Assembly: GCA_030378035.1 (NCBI GenBank)
Contig: JAUCGI010000015.1
Location: 1 to 52,197, forward strand
Reading direction: 5' to 3'
Source of the DNA: Desulfobacterales bacterium HSG2
GTDB lineage: Bacteria; Desulfobacterota; Desulfobacteria; Desulfobacterales; 4be13
Length of the DNA stretch: 52,197 bases
The position numbers and the translations under genes were made by a program. Of this stretch, positions 1 to 24,733 are shown one piece after another. Under the pieces are notes generated by a model, which ran no database searches, was not told the DNA's origin, and saw only the letters and a program-made list of their open reading frames with translations. The stretch's first letter is position 1; every line of letters begins with the position of its first letter.

Positions 1-3000
1 GGGGTGTTCGATGGCGGTCATTCCCGCGGAAGCGGGAATCCATTTGCCCCTTGCTGTCATTCCCGCGAACGCGGGAATCCATTTGCCCCCTTGCTGTCAT
101 TCCCGCGAACGCGGGAATCCATTGTTTGGAGGAGAGTGGATTCCTGCTTCCGCAGGAATGACAGCGGAGCGTTTGACGGCGGCTCTTGCTGTCATTCCCG
201 CGAACGCGGGAATCCATTGTTTGAAAGTCGGAGAGTGGATTCCTGCTTCCGCAGGAATGACAGCGGGGGTGTTCGATGGCGGTCATTCCCGCGGAAGCGG
301 GAATCCATTTGCCCCTTGCTGTCATTCCCGCGAACGCGGGAATCCATTTGCCCGGAACAGCGGGGCCTTCGAGGGCGGCCCCTTGCTGTCATTCCCGCGA
401 ACGCGGGAATCCATTTGCCCCCTTGCTGTCATTCCCGCGAACGCGGGAATCCATTGTTTGAATGGAGGAGAGTGGATTCCTGCTTCCGCAGGAATGACAG
501 CGGGGTGTTCGGCGGCGGTTCCTTGCTGTCATTCCCGCGGAAGCGGAAATCCATTGAAAGTCGGAGAGTGGATTCCTGCTTCCGCAGGAATGACAGCGGG
601 GGTGTTCGATGGCGGTCATTCCCGCGGAAGCGGGAATCCATTTGCCCCTTGCTGTCATTCCCGCGAACGCGGGAATCCATTGTTTGGAGGAGAGTGGATT
701 CCTGCTTCCGCAGGAATGACAGCGGGGTGTTCTATGGCGGTCACTTGCTGTCATTCCCGCGGAAGCGGGAATCCATTTGCCCCTTGCTGTCATTCCCGCG
801 AACGCGGGAATCCATTTGCCCGGAAACAGCGGGCCTTCGATGGCGGCCCTTGCTGTCATTCCCGCGAACGCGGGAATCCATTGTTTGGAGGAGAGTGGAT
901 TCCTGCTTCCGCAGGAATGATAGTGGGGCGTTTGACGGGGCCTTCGACGGCGGTCCCTTGCTGTCATTCCCGCGAACGCGGGAATCTATTTGTCCCTTTG
1001 CTGTCATTCCCGCGAACGCGGGAATCCATTGTTTGAATGGAGGAGAGTGGAATGACAGCGGGGCGTTTGACGGCGGCCCTTGCTGTCATTCCCGCGAACG
1101 CGGGAATCCATTTGTCCCCTTGCTGTCATTCCCGCGAACGCGGGAATCCATTGTTTGAATGGAGGGAATGACAGCGGGGCGTTTGACGGCGGCCCTTGCT
1201 GTCATTCCCGCGAACGCGGGAATCCATTGTTTGGAGGAAAGTGGATTCCTGCTTCCGCAGGAATGACAGCGGGGCGTTCGGCGGCGGCCCCTTGCTGTCA
1301 TTCCCGCGAACGCGGGAATCCATTTGTCCAGAAACAGCGGGGCCTTCGAGGCGGCCCTTGCTGTCATTCCCGCGAACGCGGGAATCCATTGTTTGAAGTC
1401 GGAGAGTGGATTCCTGCTTCCGCAGGAATGACAGCGGGGGTGTTCGATGGCGGTCATTCCCGCGGAAGCGGGAATCCATTTGCCCCCTTGCTGTCATTCC
1501 CGCGAACGCGGGAATCCATTGTTTGAATGGGAGTGGATTCCTGCTTCTGTAGGAATGACAGCGGAGCGTTTGACGGCGGCCCTTGCTGTCATTCCCGCGA
1601 ACGCGGGAATCCATTTGCCCCCTTGCTGTCATTCCCGCGAACGCGGGAATCCATTGTTTGAATGGAGGAGAGTGGAATGACAGCGGGGCGTTTGACGGCG
1701 GCCCTTGCTGTCATTCCCGCGGAAGCGGGAATTCATTTGCCCCCTTGCTGTCATTCCCGCGAACGCGGGAATCCATTGTTTGGAGGAGAGTGGATTCTTG
1801 CTTCCGCAGGAATGACAGCGGGGTGTTCGATGGCGGTCATTCCCGCGGAAGCGGGAATCCATTTGCCCCTTGCTGTCATTCCCGCGAACGCGGGAATCCA
1901 TTTGCTCCCTTGCTGTCATTCCCGCGAACGCGGGAATCCATTGTTTGGAGGAGAGTGGATTCCTGCTTCCGCAGGAATGACAGCGGGGCGTTTGACGGCG
2001 GCCTTTGCTGTCATTCCCGCGAACGCGGGAATCCATTTGCCCCCTTGCTGTCATTCCCGCGAACGCGGGAATCCATTGTTTGGAGGAGAGTGGATTCCTG
2101 CTTCCGCAGGAATGACATCGAAGGGGCCTGTCATTCCCGCGGAATCGGGAATCCATTGTTTGAAAGTCGGCGAGTGGATTCCTGCTTCCGCAGGAATGAC
2201 AGCGAGGGCCTGACATCGGAGGGACATTCCCATGCCTGTCATTCCCGCGGAAGCGGGAATCCATTGTTTGAATGGAGGAGAGTGGATTCCTGCTTCCGCA
2301 GGAATGACAGCGGGGTGTTCTATGGCGGTCACTTGCTGTCATTCCCGCGGAAGCGGGAATCCATTTGTCCCTTGCTGTCATTCCCGCGAACGCGGGAATC
2401 CATTTGCCCGGAAACAGCGGGCCTTCGAGGGCGGCCCTTGCTGTCGGAGAGTGGATTCCTGCTTCCGCAGGAATGACAGCGGGGTGTTCGATGGCGGTCA
2501 TTCCCGCGGAAGCGGGAATCCATTTGCCCCTTGCTGTCATTCCCGCGAACGCGGGAATCCATTGTTTGAATGGATTCCTGCTTCTGTAGGAATGACAGCG
2601 GAGCGTTTGACGGCGGCCCTTGCTGTCATTCCCGCGAACGCGGGAATCCATTTGCCCCTTGCTGTCATTCCCGCGAACACGGGAATCCATTGTTTGAATG
2701 GGAGTGGATTCCTGCTTCTGTAGGAATGACAGCGGAGCGTTTGACGGCGGCCCTTGCTGTCATTCCCGCGAACGCGGGAATCCATTTGCCCAGAAACAGC
2801 GGGGCCTTCGAGGGCGGCCCCTTGCTGTCATTCCCGCGAACGCGGGAATCCATTGTTTGAAAGTCGGAGAGTGGATTCCTGCTTCCGCAGGAATGACAGC
2901 GGGGTGTTCGATGGCGGTCACTTGCTGTCATTCCCGCGGAAGCGGGAATCCATTTGCCCCTTGCTGTCATTCCCGCGAACGCGGGAATCCATTTGCCCGG

Positions 3001-3900
3001 AAACAGCGGGCCTTCGAGGGCGGCCCTTGCTGTCGGAGAGTGGATTCCTGCTTCCGCAGGAATGACAGCGGGGGTGTTCGATGGCGGTCATTCCCGCGGA
3101 AGCGGGAATCCATTTGCCCCTTGCTGTCATTCCCGCGAACGCGGGAATCCATTGTTGAAAGTCGGAGAGTGGATTCCTGCTTCCGCAGGAATGACAGCGG
3201 GGTGTTCGATGGCGGTCATTCCCGCGGAAGCGGGAATCCATTTGCCCCTTGCTGTCATTCCCGCGAACGCGGGAATCCATTTGCCCCCTTGCTGTCATTC
3301 CCGCGAACGCGGGAATCCATTGTTTGAAAGGAGGAGAGTGGATTCCTGCTTCCGCGGGAATGACATCGAAGGGGCCTGTCATTCCCGCGGAAGCGGGAAT
3401 CCATTGTTTGAAAGTCGGCGAGTGGATTCCTGCTTCCGCAGGAATGACAGCGAGGGCCTGACATCGGAGGGACATTCCCATGCCTGTCATTCCCGCGGAA
3501 GCGGGAATCCATTGTTTGAAAGTCGGCGAGTGGATTCCTGCTTCCGCAGGCCATTTGCCGCGGAAGCGGGAAACCATTTTTGAATGGAGAGTAGATTCCT
3601 GCTTCCGCAGGAATGACATCGAGGAGCGTTCCATTGTCATTCCCGCGGAATCGGAAATCCATTGTTTGAAAGTCGGAGAGTGGATTCCTGCTTCCGCAGG
3701 AATGACATCGGAGGGGCGTTCTCCTTGCCCGTCATTCCCGCGGAAGCGGAAATCCATTGTTTGAAAGTCGGAGAGTGGATTCCTGCTTCCGCAGGAATGA
3801 CATCGGAGGGCGTTCCTTTGCCGCGAAAGCGGGAATCCGCCTTTGAATGAGGGGAGAGTGGATTCCTGCGGAAGCGGGAATCTGTCTTTGAAAGCCGGAT
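1..3900. repeat. Dense field of short palindromic elements (TGTCATTCC...GGAATCCA family)
   Basis: Non-coding stretch made almost entirely of 27-30 bp hairpins. Forward-facing units read TGTCATTCC, then a core such as CGCGAACGCG or CGCGGAAGCG, then GGAATCCA. Reverse-facing units read TGGATTCC, core TGCTTCCGCA, then GGAATGACA. I count by eye about 53 forward and roughly 25 reverse units. They are joined by short recurring spacers (TTTGCCCCTTGC, TTGTTTGGAGGAGAG, AGCGGGGTGTTCGATGG). Long overlapping reading frames run through the field on both strands in all phases because the units contain few stops; they encode only repeat peptides such as SFPRTRESI and IPASAGMTA. I see no gene. The field ends in degenerate units just before the helicase gene. 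Confidence 0.95.
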
Positions 3901-3956
3901 AGTTCCTCGGCTCTTATCGCCATTGGAAACAAAAACGATTGGCTATACAAAAATCC

Positions 3957-5375
3957 ATGCAAGCCCCGCGCGCCCGCTTTGTGGGAGGAACGATTGTCCT
4001 CGATAACGTGAACCAGGAGGCGCGCCCGCCTGAGCCGTTCCAATGGCATGAGGGCAAATGGCGCTCGCCCGCGTTTCATTATCGCGCTGTGCGCTCCTGG
4101 CTCAGAAAAGAACACATCCGGGACACGATTCCCCGCTGGCAGAAAATACCGCTCCGTCTCAGCGACAACCGGCGTCCGCATCCTTACCAGACCCTGGCGC
4201 TGAACGCTTGGCTGAAATCGGACCGATGGGGCAGTGTTGTCCTGCCCACCGGGGCAGGTAAAACCTTCCTGGCACTGAAAGCCATGAGCAGAACAGGTGT
4301 CAGCACCCTGATTGTCGTGCCGACGATTGATCTGCTTCATCAATGGTACGCGTGTTTGGAGAATGCGTTCGGAGAGAGCGCCGGCCCGGTGGGCGTCTGG
4401 TACGGTCTGGAAAAAGAGGCTCATCCGCTCACCGTGACGACCTATCACAGCGCGTGGGCGGATGCAGAGACATTGGGGAATCAGTTCAAACTGCTTATTT
4501 TTGATGAAATTCATCATCTGCCCGCGCCCTCGTGGCATGAAATCGCCCTGATGTGCGCCGGGCCGTACCGCCTCGGTCTGACAGCCACTTATCCTGACTA
4601 TGCCGGCGTTTCAGGCAGATCCGGAGGCATTCGCGAGAGGCAGCGACGGTATGGCTCGATCACTGACTCCTCTGCTTTGTTGGATGAGATTGTCGGCCCC
4701 GTAACCTATCGCAAATCGATTGACGATCTGACAGGGAAACAGTTGGCCGAATATCGCACCCAGCGTATCCGGATCGATCTGCGCGAGGAGGAGCGGACAG
4801 CTTACGACGCGGCTTATGCGGTTTACACCGGCTACTTAAACAAGGCGCGGCTGCGGGGGCAGTACGGCCCGGCTTGGTGGGATGAGTTCACCCGCCGCAG
4901 CGCGTTCGACGCCGAGGCCCGCCGGGCCAAAGTGGCCGAACTCAAGTTAAAGGAGATTGTTCACCAAGCCCGGGCAAAGCTCGACATTCTCGACCAGTTG
5001 CTGCGGGAGCATTGCACTCGTCAAATGCTGGTTTTCACAGCGCACAACCGATTCGCATATCGCATCTCCGGAAGACATCTCATTCCGGTTATCACCCATC
5101 AGACCAAGGCGGCTGAACGGAAAGCCGTTTTGGACAATTTCCGGGCAGGATCCTATCGGGCGATTGTCACCAGCAGAGTGCTGAATGAGGGGATCGATGT
5201 GCCGGAAGCCAAAATTGCGGTTGTTTTGGGAGGGACCGCGGGAGCGCGTGAATATATCCAGCGACTGGGACGGGTGCTGCGCAAACAGGGAAACACTGAG
5301 GCGGTCCTGTACGAAGTCATTGTCCGCAAGACGGTGGATGAAAGCATTGCCCGGCGCAGGAGAGGTAAGGGTTAA
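3957..5375 (+). CDS. SF2 DEAD/DEAH-box helicase, XPB/Rad25-like
   Basis: ATP-dependent superfamily 2 helicase of about 472 residues, probably acting on DNA. Motif I (LPTGAGKT, about residue 97), motif II (FDEIHHL, about 183), motif III (GLTATY, about 207), and the C-terminal TSRVLNEGIDVPE and QRLGRVLRKQG motifs are all visible, so both RecA-like lobes are complete. The N-terminal segment with FHYRAVRSWL resembles the region before motif I in archaeal/bacterial XPB-type helicases, which take part in DNA repair and strand separation. The ATG at 3957 is chosen. An in-frame TTG at 3939, eight bases after a weak GGAAAC, is an alternative. The stop TAA lies inside the GGGTTAA array that follows. 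The usual Bax1-type nuclease partner of XPB is not adjacent. Confidence 0.85.
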   Translation: MQAPRARFVGGTIVLDNVNQEARPPEPFQWHEGKWRSPAFHYRAVRSWLRKEHIRDTIPRWQKIPLRLSDNRRPHPYQTLALNAWLKSDRWGSVVLPTGAGKTFLALKAMSRTGVSTLIVVPTIDLLHQWYACLENAFGESAGPVGVWYGLEKEAHPLTVTTYHSAWADAETLGNQFKLLIFDEIHHLPAPSWHEIALMCAGPYRLGLTATYPDYAGVSGRSGGIRERQRRYGSITDSSALLDEIVGPVTYRKSIDDLTGKQLAEYRTQRIRIDLREEERTAYDAAYAVYTGYLNKARLRGQYGPAWWDEFTRRSAFDAEARRAKVAELKLKEIVHQARAKLDILDQLLREHCTRQMLVFTAHNRFAYRISGRHLIPVITHQTKAAERKAVLDNFRAGSYRAIVTSRVLNEGIDVPEAKIAVVLGGTAGAREYIQRLGRVLRKQGNTEAVLYEVIVRKTVDESIARRRRGKG

Positions 5376-9882: not shown

Positions 9883-10628
9883 CAAGGCTCTTTGAGAATC
9901 TGCCCTCGTGAGCTGACAACAATTTCCTTTATCGGAATATCCTTTCCCGATGCTTCCATCCCTTTTTTCACGATCATGGGGAGGCCGGAGCAGCACGGGA
10001 CCTCCATTACAACTGTGCTGACGCTTCTGATATCCGCGGTTTTGAATATGTTGGCAAATTTGTCGATATATTCCTGAACGTCATCAAATTTCGGACATCC
10101 CACCATCACGGTTTTTCCTTTCAGCAAATCCCCGTGAAAGTTCGGAAAGGCAAAAGGAACGCAATCCGCCGCGACCAGCAGGTCTGCTCCCCTGAGAAAC
10201 GGGGCGTTTGCGGGGACAAGCCTGATTTTCACGGGCCAGTGGGACAACGCTGATTCTTCGCGTCCCTGAACGGACGCGGGCCGGTTTGCGTCCTGGCAGG
10301 TTGCGGAGGGCATGAAGCTCTGAATCTGGGTTGAAGGACATCCGCAGGGCATGGTCGATGATTCGTCCTTGGTCTCTTTCTCTTTTTCCGCCAGATATTT
10401 TTCCACCGCGGCCTCATCAAACTCTTCCGCGTCCCGCTCGACGATTTTGAGCGCGCCTGTAGGGCATTCTCCGATACACGCGCCGAGTCCGTCGCAATAT
10501 TTATCCTCAACAACCCGCGCCTTGCCATCAATAATCTGCAACGCCCCTTCAGCGCATCCGGGCGCGCACAATCCGCAACCGTCACACAATTCTTCGTCAA
10601 TCTCGATAATTTTACGCAATACTTTCAT
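9876..10628 (-). CDS. Dicluster 4Fe-4S ferredoxin-type protein
   Basis: Iron-sulfur protein of 250 residues. The N-terminus carries two 4Fe-4S motifs, CDGCGLCAPGC (about 15-25) and CDGLGACIGEC (about 44-54), each followed by the usual P or A. Further cysteines occur in MPCGCPS and in the C-terminal half (VAADC, VGCPKFDD, VPCCSG), which resembles a second redox or metal-binding domain. The ATG at 10628 follows AGGAGA; codons upstream of it are only heptamer repeat. The role is likely cytoplasmic electron transfer, with the partner unknown. The stop TAA is inside the hexamer array shared with the convergent kinase. Confidence 0.88.
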   Translation of the reverse strand: MKVLRKIIEIDEELCDGCGLCAPGCAEGALQIIDGKARVVEDKYCDGLGACIGECPTGALKIVERDAEEFDEAAVEKYLAEKEKETKDESSTMPCGCPSTQIQSFMPSATCQDANRPASVQGREESALSHWPVKIRLVPANAPFLRGADLLVAADCVPFAFPNFHGDLLKGKTVMVGCPKFDDVQEYIDKFANIFKTADIRSVSTVVMEVPCCSGLPMIVKKGMEASGKDIPIKEIVVSSRGQILKEPCS

Positions 10629-10637
10629 GGAGTCTCC

Positions 10638-10912
10638 TTTCAACAAAACATCAAACATCAAACACCAAACATCAAACATCCAGCATCCAGCATCAAACAT
10701 CAAGCATCAAACATCCAGCATCCAGCATCAAGCATCAAACATCCAGCATCAAACATCCAGCATCAAGCATCCAGCATCCAGCATCCAGCATCCAACATCC
10801 AGCATCCAGCATCAAACATCCAGCATCCAGCATCCAGCATCCAGCATCCAGCATCAAACATCCAGCATCCAGCATCAAACATCCAGCATCAAGCATCAAG
10901 CATCAAGCAACA
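10638..10912. repeat. ATCCAGC / ATCAAGC / ATCAAAC heptamer array
   Basis: About forty 7-bp units, the complement of the array at 7148-7366. Read on the - strand, the sense of both flanking genes, it is GATGCTTGATGCTGG. It begins inside the last codons of the HD-domain gene and ends about 10 bp before the ferredoxin ribosome site. The + strand is stop-free and gives only SIQHPAS-type peptide. Confidence 0.95.
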
Positions 10913-11627
10913 CCTTCCCAGCCTCCTCGCGCCCGCTTTCGGTCAGAAAGGATTTTTCAATGATCTGGGTCAGTCTGTCCGGGTCAATCGGATTTTCATT
11001 ATGTTTTTCTTCAAGGTTTACAATAAGATCAGCGTCATAAAGCGCCTTGAAATTGGCGGTTTCATCCGGCCGGGGGTGATGGTGATGCCCGACGATATCG
11101 CAGACCTCCTCAATCAGTTCTTCCCTTGCGCCCAGCCGGCTTAAAATATCCCTTGCAATGGGAGGCCCTTCCTGCTCCTGATATTTTGCGGCGGTGCTGT
11201 CGTATTTCCGTTCGGCTTCATGGATGCCGATGTCATGCAGATACGCGGAAGCCAGAATCACGGCCATGTTTCCCCTTTCGGCTCTGCCGATCCGTTCCGC
11301 GTGACGCGCCACTTTTGTTGCATGGCCGATTCGCCTGAAATCCCGTCTGAAATATTTTTTCATTTCAATGGCCACCCGATCCTTTAAAAGGTTCTCCTTC
11401 TGAGCCATCAGCTCCGGCGGAAGATTTCCCAGGCACTGTTCAGCATACTGACAGTATGCTGCACAGCCGAAATCCATGCTCGGGTTGACAAATCTGTGAC
11501 CGCAACTGTCGCATTTCCGAGAGGTGTCGTCTTTGAAAAACTCCACTTCGCTGCCGCACTTGGGGCATTTCACCTCGAAGACTGCTCCCGGTTTCCAATA
11601 CCGGGTATCCTGTCCGGGACATTTCAT
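10896..11627 (-). CDS. HD-domain phosphohydrolase-like protein with zinc ribbon
   Basis: Protein of 243 residues. A zinc-ribbon-like N-terminus has CPKCG and CDSCG pairs (about 20-42), followed by a cysteine-rich [11 protein letters not shown] segment. The HD domain (about 95-215) shows H-x-x-x-V-A-R-H-A, then [20 protein letters not shown] and LYDADLIVN, the expected metal-binding set. Such domains hydrolyse phosphomonoester or phosphodiester bonds; the substrate cannot be told. The second of two close ATGs (11627) is chosen because it lies seven bases from CGGAGG, while the ATG at 11633 abuts it. The final residues LLDA and the TGA stop are written by the heptamer array. It probably shares a transcript with the ferredoxin gene. 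Confidence 0.85.
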
Positions 11628-14995: not shown

Positions 14996-16843
14996 ATGCA
15001 AAACATGACGTATGCGCTTGAAGAACGAATCGGCGATCCCTCGCTTTTCTGCGGACGGAAGAGGGAAATGGAACTGCTGCTGAACTGGGCCGGAGACATA
15101 CCCCGGAAAATATCAAAGTCCCGCGCGCTCCTCGGCAGGCGCAAAAGCGGAAAAACGGCCATCATGCAACGACTGTTCAATATTCTGTGGAATCAGGAGG
15201 GGAGGGTGGTTCCGTTTTATATCGAGGTGCCCAAGCATGAACAGTGGCTTCTCGATTTTTCGGACCTTTATTTCCGCACATTTGTAAGTCAGTACTTTTC
15301 GTTTCAGACCCGGACGGTTCTTCTCCCGGACAACGCCCCCTGGGATATGGATGATCTCGAGTCCATGGGCAGAGACATGGGACATGACAATGTTATCAGA
15401 AGAATCGGAACCTTTCGGAAATATTTTGAAGCCGGGAGGATTGAGAACGCAAGAAGTCTGGCTTTTCACACGCCCGGCTGGTTTGCCGGTATGGAGAATT
15501 TCTTTGCTCTTGTAATGATCGATGAAATTCAGTTTATGACCAAGTATATTTTCTGGGACAGAGAGCGAAAAGTCCAGGCCCGCAATCTTCCCGGAGCGTA
15601 TCACGGCCTTTCCGAGTCAAAGATCACGCCCATGCTCGTGTCCGGCAGCTATGTGGGCTGGATGACCCGGATGATGCGGGAGATGTTCAAGGGGGGCAGG
15701 CTGAAACGGACGCCGATTTCGCCGAAACTTGCTCCCGACAAGGGGCTGGAGGCTGTTTACAGGTATGCGGAAAACAGGAGAGAGGCGGTCAGCGACGAAA
15801 GCGCCGTTGTCATAAATTTTCTGACCCAGAGCGATCCCTTTTACATCGCCGCCCTTTTCAGAAGCGACTGGCCGGACCGGGATTTCACATCCGTTGACGG
15901 TGCCATCAGAACCCTGGCTTATGAGGTCATGAACCGGGATGGCGAAATTTTCGGGACCTGGTCCGAGTATATTGACTCGACCATGAAAGAAGTCAATGAC
16001 AGACATGCGAAGAAGATTCTCCTCTTTCTTTCCCGGGAACGCTTCAGGGAATGCACCCGTGACGAGATCAGGGATCATCTCGCCGGCAAACTGGATGACC
16101 GGCAGCTTGAGAAAAGACTCGGTACGCTTGAATACGGGGATCTCGTCAGCAGAGGCAGCAGCAATTTTCGTTACTGCGGCATTCCCGACGACATCCTTGA
16201 TCTGATATTCCGGGATCTGTACCAGGAGGAAATCGACAGGGACCGTCCGGATGTTGAGTCCGAGCTGGCAGCCAAGGTCCGAAAACTGGAGAGGGAGAAA
16301 AAATCATTGCAGGGAACAGTCAACGAACTCAGGGGGCGGATACCCGAACTTATGGTCTATCGGGAGCTGAACAAGTGCGGAAAAGAGAGAAAGCTGGTGA
16401 GGAATTTCAGGCAGAGGCTGCGCCCCGCGGCCGGTGCCCGCCACGCAGACAGAATGGAGGAAATTCTGACGGCCTGCTGCAAAAGCAGATTCGACACGGT
16501 ACGGATGAATTACCATGTTCAGTTGCCCGGAATCGCCGCCCGCGAACTCGATGTTCTGGCAGAGGGATCGGATGCCGACACTTGCCATGCCCTGGTTTTC
16601 GAGATGAAAAACAGGGATGAGAAAAATCCGCCTTCGGAGGACGATGCGGAATCTTTTGTCACAAAGGTGGATATGCTGAAACAGCATATCAGAAAGAAAG
16701 GGAAAAACCTCCGGTTTGTCTGCCCGGTGTATCTGAGTGCGAAGGGATTCGAGCCTGATGTCGAGGCATGGCTGCACGAACATGGGGTGTTCACCTCGGA
16801 TATGGAATACTGGGATCGCCGTTCTGATCCGGCAGGGGGATAG
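14996..16843 (+). CDS. ATPase-nuclease, tandem copy 1
   Basis: Protein of 615 residues. The P-loop GRRKSGKT (47-54) and Walker B LVMIDEIQF (about 171-179) define a STAND/archaeal-ATPase-like NTPase. A winged-helix-like segment (about 338-405), a coiled coil (about 425-455) and a C-terminal PD-(D/E)XK-like core follow: ELDVLAEG (about 516) then LVFEMKNR (about 532-539). The E-L-D...F-E-x-K spacing suggests nuclease activity. The start follows CAACGGAGGTAAATC. The copy is followed 45 bp later by a second gene with the same upstream box. The pair differs mainly at residues 187-196 and at the C-terminal tail. Function is unknown; a role in defence or mobile-element control is an inference from architecture and neighbours. 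Confidence 0.85.
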   Translation: MQNMTYALEERIGDPSLFCGRKREMELLLNWAGDIPRKISKSRALLGRRKSGKTAIMQRLFNILWNQEGRVVPFYIEVPKHEQWLLDFSDLYFRTFVSQYFSFQTRTVLLPDNAPWDMDDLESMGRDMGHDNVIRRIGTFRKYFEAGRIENARSLAFHTPGWFAGMENFFALVMIDEIQFMTKYIFWDRERKVQARNLPGAYHGLSESKITPMLVSGSYVGWMTRMMREMFKGGRLKRTPISPKLAPDKGLEAVYRYAENRREAVSDESAVVINFLTQSDPFYIAALFRSDWPDRDFTSVDGAIRTLAYEVMNRDGEIFGTWSEYIDSTMKEVNDRHAKKILLFLSRERFRECTRDEIRDHLAGKLDDRQLEKRLGTLEYGDLVSRGSSNFRYCGIPDDILDLIFRDLYQEEIDRDRPDVESELAAKVRKLEREKKSLQGTVNELRGRIPELMVYRELNKCGKERKLVRNFRQRLRPAAGARHADRMEEILTACCKSRFDTVRMNYHVQLPGIAARELDVLAEGSDADTCHALVFEMKNRDEKNPPSEDDAESFVTKVDMLKQHIRKKGKNLRFVCPVYLSAKGFEPDVEAWLHEHGVFTSDMEYWDRRSDPAGG

Positions 16844-16888
16844 TACACCCGAAAAGTGACAACTGACTGCAATCAACGGAGGTAAATC

Positions 16889-18724
16889 ATGCAAAACATG
16901 ACGTATGCGCTTGAAGAACGAATCGGCGATCCCTCGCTTTTCTGCGGACGGAAGAGGGAAATGGAACTGATGCTGAACTGGGCCGGAGATATCCCCCGGA
17001 AAATATCAAAGTCCCGCGCGCTCCTCGGCAGGCGCAAAAGCGGAAAAACGGCCATCATGCAGCGACTGTTCAATATTCTGTGGAATCAGGAGGGGAGGGT
17101 GGTTCCGTTTTATATCGAGGTGCCCAAGCATGAACAGTGGCTTCTCGATTTTTCGGACCTCTATTTCCGCACATTTGTAAGTCAGTACTTTTCGTTTCAG
17201 ACCCGGACGGTTCTTCTCCCGGACAATGCCCCCTGGGATATGGATGATCTCGAGTCCATGGGCAGAGACATGGGACATGACAATGTTATCAGAAGAATCG
17301 GAACCTTTCGGAAATATTTTGAAGCCGGAAGGGTTGAGAACGCAAGAAGTCTGGCTTTTCACACGCCCGGCTGGTTTGCCGGTATGGAAAATTTCTTCGC
17401 TCTTGTAATGATCGATGAAATCCAGTTTATGACCAAGTATATTTTTCGGGATGAGGATTGCAAAATACCGACAAAAAATCTTCCCGGAGCGTATCACGGC
17501 CTTTCCGAGTCAAAGATTACGCCCATGCTCGTGTCCGGCAGCTATGTGGGCTGGATGACCCGGATGATGCGGGAAATGTTCAAAGGGGGCCGGCTGAAAC
17601 GGACGCCGATTTCGCCGAAACTTGCTCCCGACAAGGGGCTGGAGGCTGTTTACAGGTATGCGGAAAACAGGAGAGAGACGGTCAGCGACGAAAGCGCCGT
17701 TGTCATAAATTTTCTGACCCAGAGCGATCCCTTTTACATCGCCGCCCTTTTCAGAAGCGACTGGGCAGACCGGGATTTCACATCCGTTGACGGTGCCATC
17801 AGGACCCTGGCTTATGAGGTCATGAACCGGGATGGCGAAATTTTCGGGACCTGGTCCGAATATATCGACTCGACCATGAAAGAGGTCAATGACAGACATG
17901 CGAAGAAGATTCTCCTCTTTCTTTCCCGGGAACGCTTCAGGGAATGCACCCGTGACGAGATCAGGGATCATCTCGCCGGCAAACTGGATGACCGGCAGCT
18001 TGAGAAAAGACTCAGCACGCTTGAATACGGGGATCTCGTCAGCAGAGGCAGCAGCAATTTCCGTTACTGCGGCATTCCCGACGACATCCTTGATCTGATA
18101 TTTCGGGATCTGTACCAGGAGGAAATCGACAGGGACCGTCCGGATGTTGAGTCCGAGCTGGCAGCCAAGGTCCGAAAACTGGAGAGGGAGAAAAAATCAT
18201 TGCAGGGAACAGTCAGCGAACTCAGGGGGCGGATACCCGAACTTATGGTCTATCGGGAGCTGAACAAGTGCGGAAAAGAGAGAAAGCTGGTGAGGAATTT
18301 CAGGCAGAGGCTGCGCCCCGCGGCCGGTGCCCGTCTCACAGACAGAATGGAGGAGATTCTGACGGCCTGCTGCGAAAGCCGGTTCGACACGGTACGGATG
18401 AATTACCATGTTCAGTTGCCCGGAATCGCCGCCCGCGAACTCGACGTTCTGGCAGAGGGATCGGATGCCGACACTTGCCATGCCCTGGTTTTCGAGATGA
18501 AAAACAGGGATGAGAAAAATCCGCCTTCGGAGGAGGATGCGGAATCTTTTGTCACAAAGGTGGATATGCTGAAACAGCATATCAGAAAGAAAGGGAAAAA
18601 CCTCCGGTTTGTCTGCCCGGTGTATCTGAGTGCGAAGGGATTCGAGCCTGATGTCGAGGCATGGCTGCACGAACATGGGGTGTTCACCTCGGATATGGAA
18701 TGTTGGGATCAGTCTTCCGAGTGA
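16889..18724 (+). CDS. ATPase-nuclease, tandem copy 2
   Basis: Protein of 611 residues with the same layout as the preceding gene: P-loop GRRKSGKT at 47-54, Walker B at about 171-179, winged helix, coiled coil, and ELDVLAEG/LVFEMKNR nuclease-like core. By eye only about ten substitutions separate the copies over the alignable length, except for residues 187-196, where eight of ten positions differ (WDRERKVQAR against RDEDCKIPTK), and the last few residues. The ribosome-site box CAATCAACGGAGGTAAATC is duplicated too, so the repeat unit is about 1.89 kb. It is likely co-transcribed with copy 1 and with the SMC-like ATPase gene 41 bp downstream. Confidence 0.85.
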   Translation: MQNMTYALEERIGDPSLFCGRKREMELMLNWAGDIPRKISKSRALLGRRKSGKTAIMQRLFNILWNQEGRVVPFYIEVPKHEQWLLDFSDLYFRTFVSQYFSFQTRTVLLPDNAPWDMDDLESMGRDMGHDNVIRRIGTFRKYFEAGRVENARSLAFHTPGWFAGMENFFALVMIDEIQFMTKYIFRDEDCKIPTKNLPGAYHGLSESKITPMLVSGSYVGWMTRMMREMFKGGRLKRTPISPKLAPDKGLEAVYRYAENRRETVSDESAVVINFLTQSDPFYIAALFRSDWADRDFTSVDGAIRTLAYEVMNRDGEIFGTWSEYIDSTMKEVNDRHAKKILLFLSRERFRECTRDEIRDHLAGKLDDRQLEKRLSTLEYGDLVSRGSSNFRYCGIPDDILDLIFRDLYQEEIDRDRPDVESELAAKVRKLEREKKSLQGTVSELRGRIPELMVYRELNKCGKERKLVRNFRQRLRPAAGARLTDRMEEILTACCESRFDTVRMNYHVQLPGIAARELDVLAEGSDADTCHALVFEMKNRDEKNPPSEEDAESFVTKVDMLKQHIRKKGKNLRFVCPVYLSAKGFEPDVEAWLHEHGVFTSDMECWDQSSE

Positions 18725-18765
18725 AAACAGAAGTTACATTTCAAATTTCAAATTTCAAACAAAAC

Positions 18766-20118
18766 ATGATTACCCGCATCGAAATAAACGGATTCAAAAC
18801 TTTTCACGATTTCAAGCTTGACCTAAGCCCTTTTCAGGTGATCGTAGGCCCGAACGGAGCAGGCAAGAGCAATCTGTTTGACGCGCTTCGTATGTTGTCC
18901 AGCTTGACGGATTCGGACCTGCGGACCGCTTTTCATGACTTGCGGGGTGAAGCCGGCGAATTGTTCAGCATGTTTCCGGATGGCCGATCTTCCGACCGAA
19001 TGCAGTTGGCTGTTGAAATGCTTGTTGAACGCCAAGCTCAGGACAACTGGGGCGCTGAGGCCGATTTGAAACATACCCGTCTCCGTTATGAACTGGAAAT
19101 CGCTCGCCGCAGTGACAAACGAGGAATAGAGCGGCTTTATGTGGATAAGGAATCGCTCCTTCCGATCCGGCAGGAGGATGATGCTTGGATAAAGCGATAT
19201 AATCTTTCTCAGAAAAACCGGATGCCCAACTTGACAGAAGAACGGAATGAGCCCTTTATCTCAACATTTCGGAAGGGAAAAACCAAAGGTATCAAGCTTC
19301 ATACAGATGGACGGGAAGGGAAACGGGTGATTGTTGCGGAACGAGTTAAGCGCACGGTATTAAGCGGAATAAATAACGTCGAATTTCCCCATGCCTTTGC
19401 AGCACACGAAGAGATGCGTTCATGGAAATTTCTGCATATCAACCCTGAAGTATTGCGGCAGCCCAGTTCCATGCTGGCTCAACCATTTATTGATTCGGAC
19501 GGGAGCAATTTACCCACCGCGCTTGCCCGTATGCAAAGCGAAGATCCTTTTATTCTGAATGATGTTTCACGGGATTTGGCAAATCTTGTACCGGGCGTTT
19601 TAAAAGTGGATGTTGAGGAAGAGAGGAGCAGGGATCAGTATCTTGTCCGCATTCACACCCAGGACGGATGCTCTTTCTCGTCACGCGTGATCTCCGATGG
19701 CACACTGCGGGCCCTGACCCTGGTTTCGCTCAAAAATGACCCGGAACATCGCGGCGTGCTCTGTTTTGAAGAGCCGGAGAACGGCGTTCATCCGCTCCGG
19801 CTCAGAAATCTGGTTGGTGTGTTAAAAGAGCTGTCAACAGATTTCTCTGACCCGGAGCAGACAGATGAACCTTTACGCCAATTGCTGGTCAACACCCATT
19901 CCCCGGTTCTGGTTGCACAGAAAGAAGAAGTGTGGCCAAACATATTGTTCGCTTATATGACGACCCAGGTTGCCGTCCACGGTCAGCCCCATAGAATTAC
20001 GAGAATTATTCCTGTGGAATCCGGTGTTCAGACCAAACTTGATCTGGGCATAGATGAGCAGGAAGAAAAATATACGCTTGATCAGGTGAAGCATTATATA
20101 GAACAGGTGAAACCATAG
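18766..20118 (+). CDS. SMC/OLD-like AAA ATPase (AAA_21 type)
   Basis: ABC-fold ATPase of 450 residues. The Walker A is GPNGAGKS (28-35) after an N-terminus typical of RecF/SMC heads (ITRIEINGFKTF). The signature-like VISDGTLRAL lies near 306, Walker B CFEEPENGVHP near 333, and the H-loop NTHSPVLV near 375. There is no long coiled-coil arm. ATPases of this kind commonly pair with a TOPRIM-like protein in OLD, Gabija or PARIS-type defence modules, and the next gene is such a protein, here broken. The ATG at 18766 is chosen because homology to SMC heads starts there. The ribosome site is weak (AAACAAAAC), so coupling to the upstream gene is possible. Confidence 0.88.
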   Translation: MITRIEINGFKTFHDFKLDLSPFQVIVGPNGAGKSNLFDALRMLSSLTDSDLRTAFHDLRGEAGELFSMFPDGRSSDRMQLAVEMLVERQAQDNWGAEADLKHTRLRYELEIARRSDKRGIERLYVDKESLLPIRQEDDAWIKRYNLSQKNRMPNLTEERNEPFISTFRKGKTKGIKLHTDGREGKRVIVAERVKRTVLSGINNVEFPHAFAAHEEMRSWKFLHINPEVLRQPSSMLAQPFIDSDGSNLPTALARMQSEDPFILNDVSRDLANLVPGVLKVDVEEERSRDQYLVRIHTQDGCSFSSRVISDGTLRALTLVSLKNDPEHRGVLCFEEPENGVHPLRLRNLVGVLKELSTDFSDPEQTDEPLRQLLVNTHSPVLVAQKEEVWPNILFAYMTTQVAVHGQPHRITRIIPVESGVQTKLDLGIDEQEEKYTLDQVKHYIEQVKP

Positions 20119-24085: not shown

Positions 24086-24100
24086 TGAGGAGGTTTGATA

Positions 24101-24733
24101 ATGCTATCTTTCAATGAATGCACTTTGGAAATGTTGGACAGCACATTTGGTTTAAAACAGATCAGAACAAGCCAGTCTTTACAAAACCTGCTTGACGGTG
24201 AGGCTGAACTTTCGGATCTTGAGCATAATATTTTGCTTAATTTTCGCGAATTACTCCTGATAAACGTGGATAACTGGAATGAGCAGGAATTGGCATTAAA
24301 CTTCATCGGGCCTGTCTTTGCCTTAATAAACTTTACAGGCGAAAATTTTAATCTTTTTGCTGACAGGCTTCTCAAAGGTGTCGTTGACGGCATTGAGATG
24401 AAAGGAAAACCTGACAGTATGATCGCCAGCGGCTGGCGTGTGCCCAAAAAGCCTTATTTTTGTTTTCAGGAGTACAAGAAGGAAAAGGACGCAGAGGGTG
24501 ATCCTGCTGCCCAGGCATTGGCCGCCATGCTGGTTTCCCAGGAGATTAACGAACATAAAATACCTGTTTACGGCTGTTATGTAAGAGGCCGCTTCTGGTT
24601 CTTTATGGTATTAAAGGACAAATCGTATTGTATCAGTGATGCCTACACTGCAACGAAGGATGATCTTTTTGACATATTCAGAATCCTGAAGGTCTTAAAG
24701 CAGTTTGTCATGGAAATAGCCGAACAGAATTAG
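24101..24733 (+). CDS. Small PD-(D/E)XK-like protein, family uncharacterised
   Basis: Protein of 210 residues, cytoplasmic, without membrane segments. A nuclease-like core is visible: GKPDSMIASG (about 104-113) followed by CFQEYKKEKD (about 123-132), fitting PD...E-x-K. Later conserved-looking blocks are VYGCYVRGRFWFF and SYCISDAYTAT. The first ATG after GAGGAGG with seven-base spacing is at 24101; an in-frame TTG two codons earlier overlaps the spacing and is unlikely. I recall similar hypothetical proteins in Desulfobacterales and large sulfur bacteria but know no function. It converges with the next kinase, with only four bases between the stops. Confidence 0.75.
   Translation: MLSFNECTLEMLDSTFGLKQIRTSQSLQNLLDGEAELSDLEHNILLNFRELLLINVDNWNEQELALNFIGPVFALINFTGENFNLFADRLLKGVVDGIEMKGKPDSMIASGWRVPKKPYFCFQEYKKEKDAEGDPAAQALAAMLVSQEINEHKIPVYGCYVRGRFWFFMVLKDKSYCISDAYTATKDDLFDIFRILKVLKQFVMEIAEQN

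Follow-up and report, generated by a model that had tools for sequence, protein, structure and literature searches.

The L and M opsin genes of primates are a paralogue pair that gene conversion homogenises around a selected island (PMC3213168). Like the bacterial genes described here, they are tandem duplicates that are nearly identical, apart from a single short segment of functional importance that has diverged, and synonymous divergence is raised near it. Compared with the opsins, the ATPase-nuclease pairs differ in being bacterial, in showing the island in eight pairs and in having island types that are common to genera and phyla. Type I restriction specificity subunits are known for the shuffling and movement of target-recognition domains (PMC3077401). 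Here the likeness lies in recognition segments swapped between conserved flanks; however, our patch spans about ten residues beside an ATPase Walker B motif rather than a whole DNA-binding domain, and silent cassettes were not seen. A third system is found in the conflict sensors of multicellular bacteria that are diversified by diversity-generating retroelements, in which a variable CLec domain is written by reverse transcription (PMC10907252). Localised variation, NTPase-linked proteins and multicellular hosts are features in common, whereas the ATPase-nuclease patch lacks a template and comes in just two types, both of them old. Close in domain content are the archaeal-type (PF01637) and STAND-like P-loop ATPases with a C-terminal nuclease, with which the present family shares the Walker A and B motifs, a lid, a PD-(D/E)XK tail and perhaps a winged helix. 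Unlike them, it scores under all the Pfam, NCBIfam and PADLOC cut-offs that were applied, and has undergone a large expansion and carries a two-state loop.

The window analysed here is a stretch of 52,197 nucleotides on contig JAUCGI010000015.1 of Desulfobacterales bacterium HSG2.

A tandem gene pair differs in one ten-residue patch

Two ATPase-nuclease genes lie in tandem on the + strand, copy 1 at 14996-16843 (615 residues) and copy 2 at 16889-18724 (611 residues). The initial annotation had picked out residues 187-196 as differing at eight of ten positions between otherwise twin proteins, and the ORFs and their alignment bear this out. The patch reads WDRERKVQAR in copy 1 (15554-15583, + strand) and RDEDCKIPTK in copy 2 (17447-17476, + strand), so that residues 187, 189, 190, 191, 193, 194, 195 and 196 are unlike, together with 16 of 30 nucleotides, while protein identity outside the patch is 97.7%. 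The same annotation had put the scattered substitutions at about ten; they are few, but slightly more numerous than that, with 14 in residues 1-611 outside the patch and a C-terminus that also differs. Upstream of the diverging C-terminal tail, the alignment contains 61 nucleotide differences, and the clustering of 16 of these in the 30 patch nucleotides out of 1836 is highly non-random (binomial P = 2.6e-15); one more, synonymous, is at 15553. As had been claimed, the DNA on both sides is nearly identical: the 23 nt upstream (15530-15552) and the 41 nt downstream (15584-15624) in copy 1 match those of copy 2 without change.

A replacement this short and sharp-edged, set in near-identical flanks, might come from a diversity-generating retroelement or from silent copies that act as cassette donors. 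No donor-like DNA beyond the family genes was found, however, in the organism's own genome (about 73% complete) or in the single-contig genome G002 of a relative, nor did the latter contain retroelement template-like DNA for either patch, and we regard such a mechanism as very unlikely.

Walker B and a sensor-1-like strand flank the patch in an AAA+-like ATPase

Two motifs in copy 1, at residues 47-54 and 173-179, mark a P-loop ATPase of the AAA+/STAND type. The Walker A motif, GRRKSGKT (residues 47-54; 15134-15157, + strand), was recognised from the sequence, with weak ATPase_2/AAA_16 matches below cut-off; PF01637 (ATPase_2) scored 15.5 bits with the window protein and 21.4 bits with the homologue L010, both under the Pfam gathering threshold of 33.2. 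The Walker B motif, VMIDEIQ (residues 173-179; 15512-15532, + strand), sits between two variable modules, and its D176, E177 and Q179 are invariant in an 18-row family alignment, as are L214, G217 and S218 of a sensor-1-like strand, LVSGS (residues 214-218; 15635-15649, + strand). The patch is positioned after Walker B and before this strand. A predicted AAA+ helical lid at residues 240-319 (15713-15952, + strand) was assigned by structural match to RuvB (1in4). The predicted model resembles RuvB/RuvBL with a Z-score of 8.3 and an rmsd of 2.2 Å over 68 residues to 1in4 (VIA-align); the match spans about residues 240-311/319, and the Z-score is moderate for a helical domain that is small. Beyond the lid, a winged-helix search returned an HTH_20 match in the homologue L103 (E 7.6e-4), below cut-off.

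A PD-(D/E)XK nuclease fold in the C-terminal residues 448-611 (16337-16828, + strand) is supported by the predicted model, which matches AF1548 (1y88) with a Z-score of 11.5 and Can2 nucleases with about 10, at an AlphaFold2 pLDDT of about 73-92. The catalytic D...ExK residues D519, E536 and K538 are at least 90% conserved. The P-loop core and the patch were predicted poorly by AlphaFold2, both in the full protein and in the ATPase domain alone, with a pLDDT of about 30 in the patch. In Pfam, NCBIfam and PADLOC, no model gave a match to the window protein above cut-off or with a meaningful E-value, and HMMER matches to known ATPase families were all below cut-off. Among anti-phage defence models, the best PADLOC E-value was 0.08 and an NCBIfam model reached 10.4 bits against the 790 needed. 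Searches of solved structures by sequence returned chance-level matches only.

Several other features were noted in the window. The AAA_21-type ATPase encoded directly downstream of copy 2, at 18661-20118, strongly matches PADLOC HEC-01A (E 2.9e-151), and the product of a short ORF at 20510-20920 matches HEC-01B (E 5e-23); these two are a candidate defence pair. An XPB-like helicase (3903-5372) matches the C-terminal two thirds of the PADLOC PbeA model (E 1e-46), and a small protein (24089-24730) matches the PADLOC PD_DExK CRISPR-associated model (E 7e-14). Long ORFs of short repeats at 1-3900 and 10351-11040 (CHSRERGNP.../FRRND... and SNIKHQTSNIQHQ...) seem to be dispersed arrays of repeats and not genes.

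The family is expanded in few genomes

The organism's own genome contains 28 family matches. Matches were found in 11 of 58 genomes of order-level relatives, several of which have 20 or more, and strong matches in only 1 further genome of a phylum sample of 297. Named relatives with the family include Thiomargarita, Parabeggiatoa, Desulfobacterales and one Aminicenantes MAG. No homologues were found in phages, plasmids or viral contigs, neighbouring genes compared by eye at 16 loci revealed no conserved candidate partner, and literature searches on the family or on such a patch returned nothing specific. Contigs of draft genomes (L090, L100, L101, L102, L103, L112 and others) often end at or inside family genes; tandem arrays therefore probably break assemblies and are undercounted. 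Broken copies with a frameshift or stops were seen at L036:5803-7354, L011:846-2602 and G002:C1:928727-928975, and since they occur in several genomes, gene turnover looks high.

The patch is a two-state module

About 110 homologues from nine related genomes were typed at the patch. In type A, to which copy 2 belongs, position 187 is R, in rare cases K, and position 191 is C, in rare cases E. In type B, that of copy 1, position 187 is P, W, Y or another residue and position 191 is R, K, Y, F or H. The two positions are coupled, the strict table of R187 by C191 being 45/3/1/61. Unclean types, with R187 but without C191, occur in L034, L111, L124 and several Aminicenantes copies. Among A/B pairs that are phylogenetically independent, of which there are 31, every one differs at residue 191 and all but one at residue 187 (30/31). 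No column outside the patch tracks the type among these 31 pairs, which indicates that the patch is self-contained. On a family tree built without the patch, there are at least 32 switches of type, statistically much as with shuffled labels (35.3 +/- 2.7), and a tree that omits both variable modules gives the same number; type assorts freely across the family. Both types are present in the genomes of Thiomargarita and Parabeggiatoa, giant sulfur bacteria of the gammaproteobacteria. The patch is thus a two-state, self-contained module of an unnamed ATPase-nuclease family.

If the patch were located at a subunit interface, types A and B could form an obligate mixed oligomer, with one of each encoded per array. 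The residues set opposite each other would suit such an arrangement, with R/K187 in type A facing an aromatic residue or proline in type B, and C/E191 facing R/K/Y/F; moreover, with the types taken in their generalised form, each of the five pairs closest on the tree is A+B. Just three close members are present in G002, two of them a tandem A+B pair and the third a lone B, and this too could be read in favour of pairing. Yet nearest same-genome pairs are A+B in 18 of 35 cases (18.3 expected), A+B combinations counted per genome and subfamily number 15 of 21 (16.2 expected), and A+A and B+B tandems also occur. Obligate A+B pairing is not supported, since A+B is not in excess, and we consider a mixed oligomer unlikely.

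The same island recurs in independent pairs

Eight close pairs in all, the window pair and seven more (one in its own genome, six in other genomes), show the same island, with 87-98% amino-acid identity outside the patch. In the additional pairs, identity outside the patch and patch differences are 98.1% and 9/11 residues (L010), 97.6% and 6/10 (L090), 96.4% and 8/11 (L153), 95.7% and 6/10 (L140/L141), 91.5% and 8/11 (L087), 91.3% and 8/10 (L076/L078) and 87.4% and 8/11 (L116/L117). In 16 close pairs that are independent of one another, no window of the protein diverges more than the patch, with 0.44 differences per site versus 0.067 elsewhere. The variability per site that had been proposed as a check on the patch confirms that its surroundings vary far less, entropy within subfamilies being 1.76-1.95 bits in the patch versus 0.39-0.78 in the flanks. 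Two types are not selected for in every case, because some tandem pairs (L100, L108 and L109) have one and the same patch. In the L100 tandem (1541-3382 and 3427-5187), the patch and residues 87-171 are identical, and the differences lie around 205-320 and in the C-terminal region.

These pairs bear on two further explanations. The patch might be an unconstrained loop that conversion has spared by chance: variation may be tolerated in loops that follow Walker B, and patch entropy is high in every subfamily. Against this, the types are discrete, their positions are coupled and they recur across phyla, and eight pairs show the same island, so that a chance origin seems improbable. Alternatively, the island could come from a chimera or collapsed repeat in the window contig, which belongs to a draft assembly of a kind in which many contigs end at family genes. 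Seven other pairs, however, six of them in independent assemblies that include the single-contig genome with the G002 tandem, show the island as well, and both patches have homologues elsewhere; we find assembly error barely credible.

Old patch types reside in young or homogenised genes

The comparison of synonymous and nonsynonymous change in windows between copies that the initial annotation had suggested was made on seven switched pairs, pooled, and both measures peak in the patch. From the patch through the 20 flanking codons to the rest of the gene, pS falls from 0.88 to 0.24 and 0.10, and pN from 0.47 to 0.03 and 0.025. The patch is saturated at synonymous sites, and both its versions must therefore be old. 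As in conversion-homogenised pairs, synonymous divergence is high at the island and its flanks and low elsewhere, and the island alleles are older than the background of the duplicates. The patch types are old within young or homogenised genes, which therefore reflects swap or maintenance, not fresh diversification.

That the patch loop has instead been changed in situ by repeated amino-acid-changing mutation, as in an arms race, could be proposed from its place as the most divergent window among close paralogues. The saturation of its synonymous sites largely refutes this, and the two conserved types, with R187-C191 coupling and recurrence across phyla, speak against it too; we hold it to be highly improbable. 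Of the two earlier proposals, then, that of copies which stay alike except for a short stretch, either exchanged or preserved, is supported, whereas that of a segment diversified as new variation is not, given a pS of 0.88 and essentially two conserved types found across genera and phyla.

The patch DNA of copy 2 is 83% identical to that of L036, a homologue in another genome with 76-77% protein identity, while the copy 1 patch is 43% identical to it. Conversely, L032, whose patch is of type B, has 73% DNA identity there to copy 1 and 43% to copy 2; over the gene outside the patch, copy 1 and L032 share 63% DNA identity. Each patch is thus matched better by L036 or L032 than is the patch of its sister copy, and it follows that both types were inherited. 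Either conversion homogenised the remainder of the genes, or an exchange took place that was confined to a very short tract. The tandem A+B pair and lone B, the only close members in G002, speak for a difference that was maintained while its surroundings were homogenised, rather than for recent import.

A second variable module precedes Walker B

Residues 87-171 (15254-15508 in copy 1, + strand) are alike in copies 1 and 2 but form a divergence island in other pairs. DNA identity in this segment is 69.0% versus 99.2% elsewhere in the L108 pair, in which the patch type is shared, 65.9% versus 93.5% in the L011 pair and 65.9% versus 96.4% in the L087 pair (3403-5157 and 1615-3372). The 87-171 island varies independently of the patch. 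In the predicted secondary structure, it forms the helical beta2-beta3 connection, and residues 187-196 form the beta3-beta4 connection. In AAA+ rings, these two connections carry the substrate-contacting (pore) loops. Placement of both islands at such positions is the main reason to suggest that together they may form a recognition surface.

Discussion

We propose that the patch is one half of a modular, two-specificity recognition surface, whose types selection keeps apart while conversion homogenises the rest, a reading to which we give an even chance. The surface would be carried by an AAA+-like ATPase with a C-terminal PD-(D/E)XK nuclease and would comprise the modules 87-171 and 187-196. 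The 187-196 loop, which would be exposed and at a pore-loop position, would come in two specificities of ancient origin, types A and B, that probably fit two classes of ligand or substrate; we favour the reading that the patch may act in ligand recognition and so determine specificity, and the earlier suggestion that it sets target or partner specificity is plausible. Homologous recombination among paralogues, through gene conversion in tandem arrays, may repeatedly re-homogenise the ATPase core and the nuclease, with gene conversion the presumed agent. Selection would retain or reintroduce both loop types, leaving paralogues identical but for one recognition module, and ATP-driven recognition may then license the nuclease.

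A broader and rather doubtful extension is that large or multicellular bacteria hold a genome-wide two-state recognition code, in which tens of paralogues with interchangeable A/B loops and a separately variable helical module would make up a repertoire, reshuffled by recombination, for non-self or kin discrimination.

For the family itself, a ten-residue segment is treated by evolution as an independent module of a large, uncharacterised group of ATPase-nucleases. Its pairs offer a bacterial example, many times repeated and common to several phyla, of a divergence island under paralogue homogenisation, and near-isogenic natural pairs such as copies 1 and 2 are ready-made swap experiments on what the loop may recognise.
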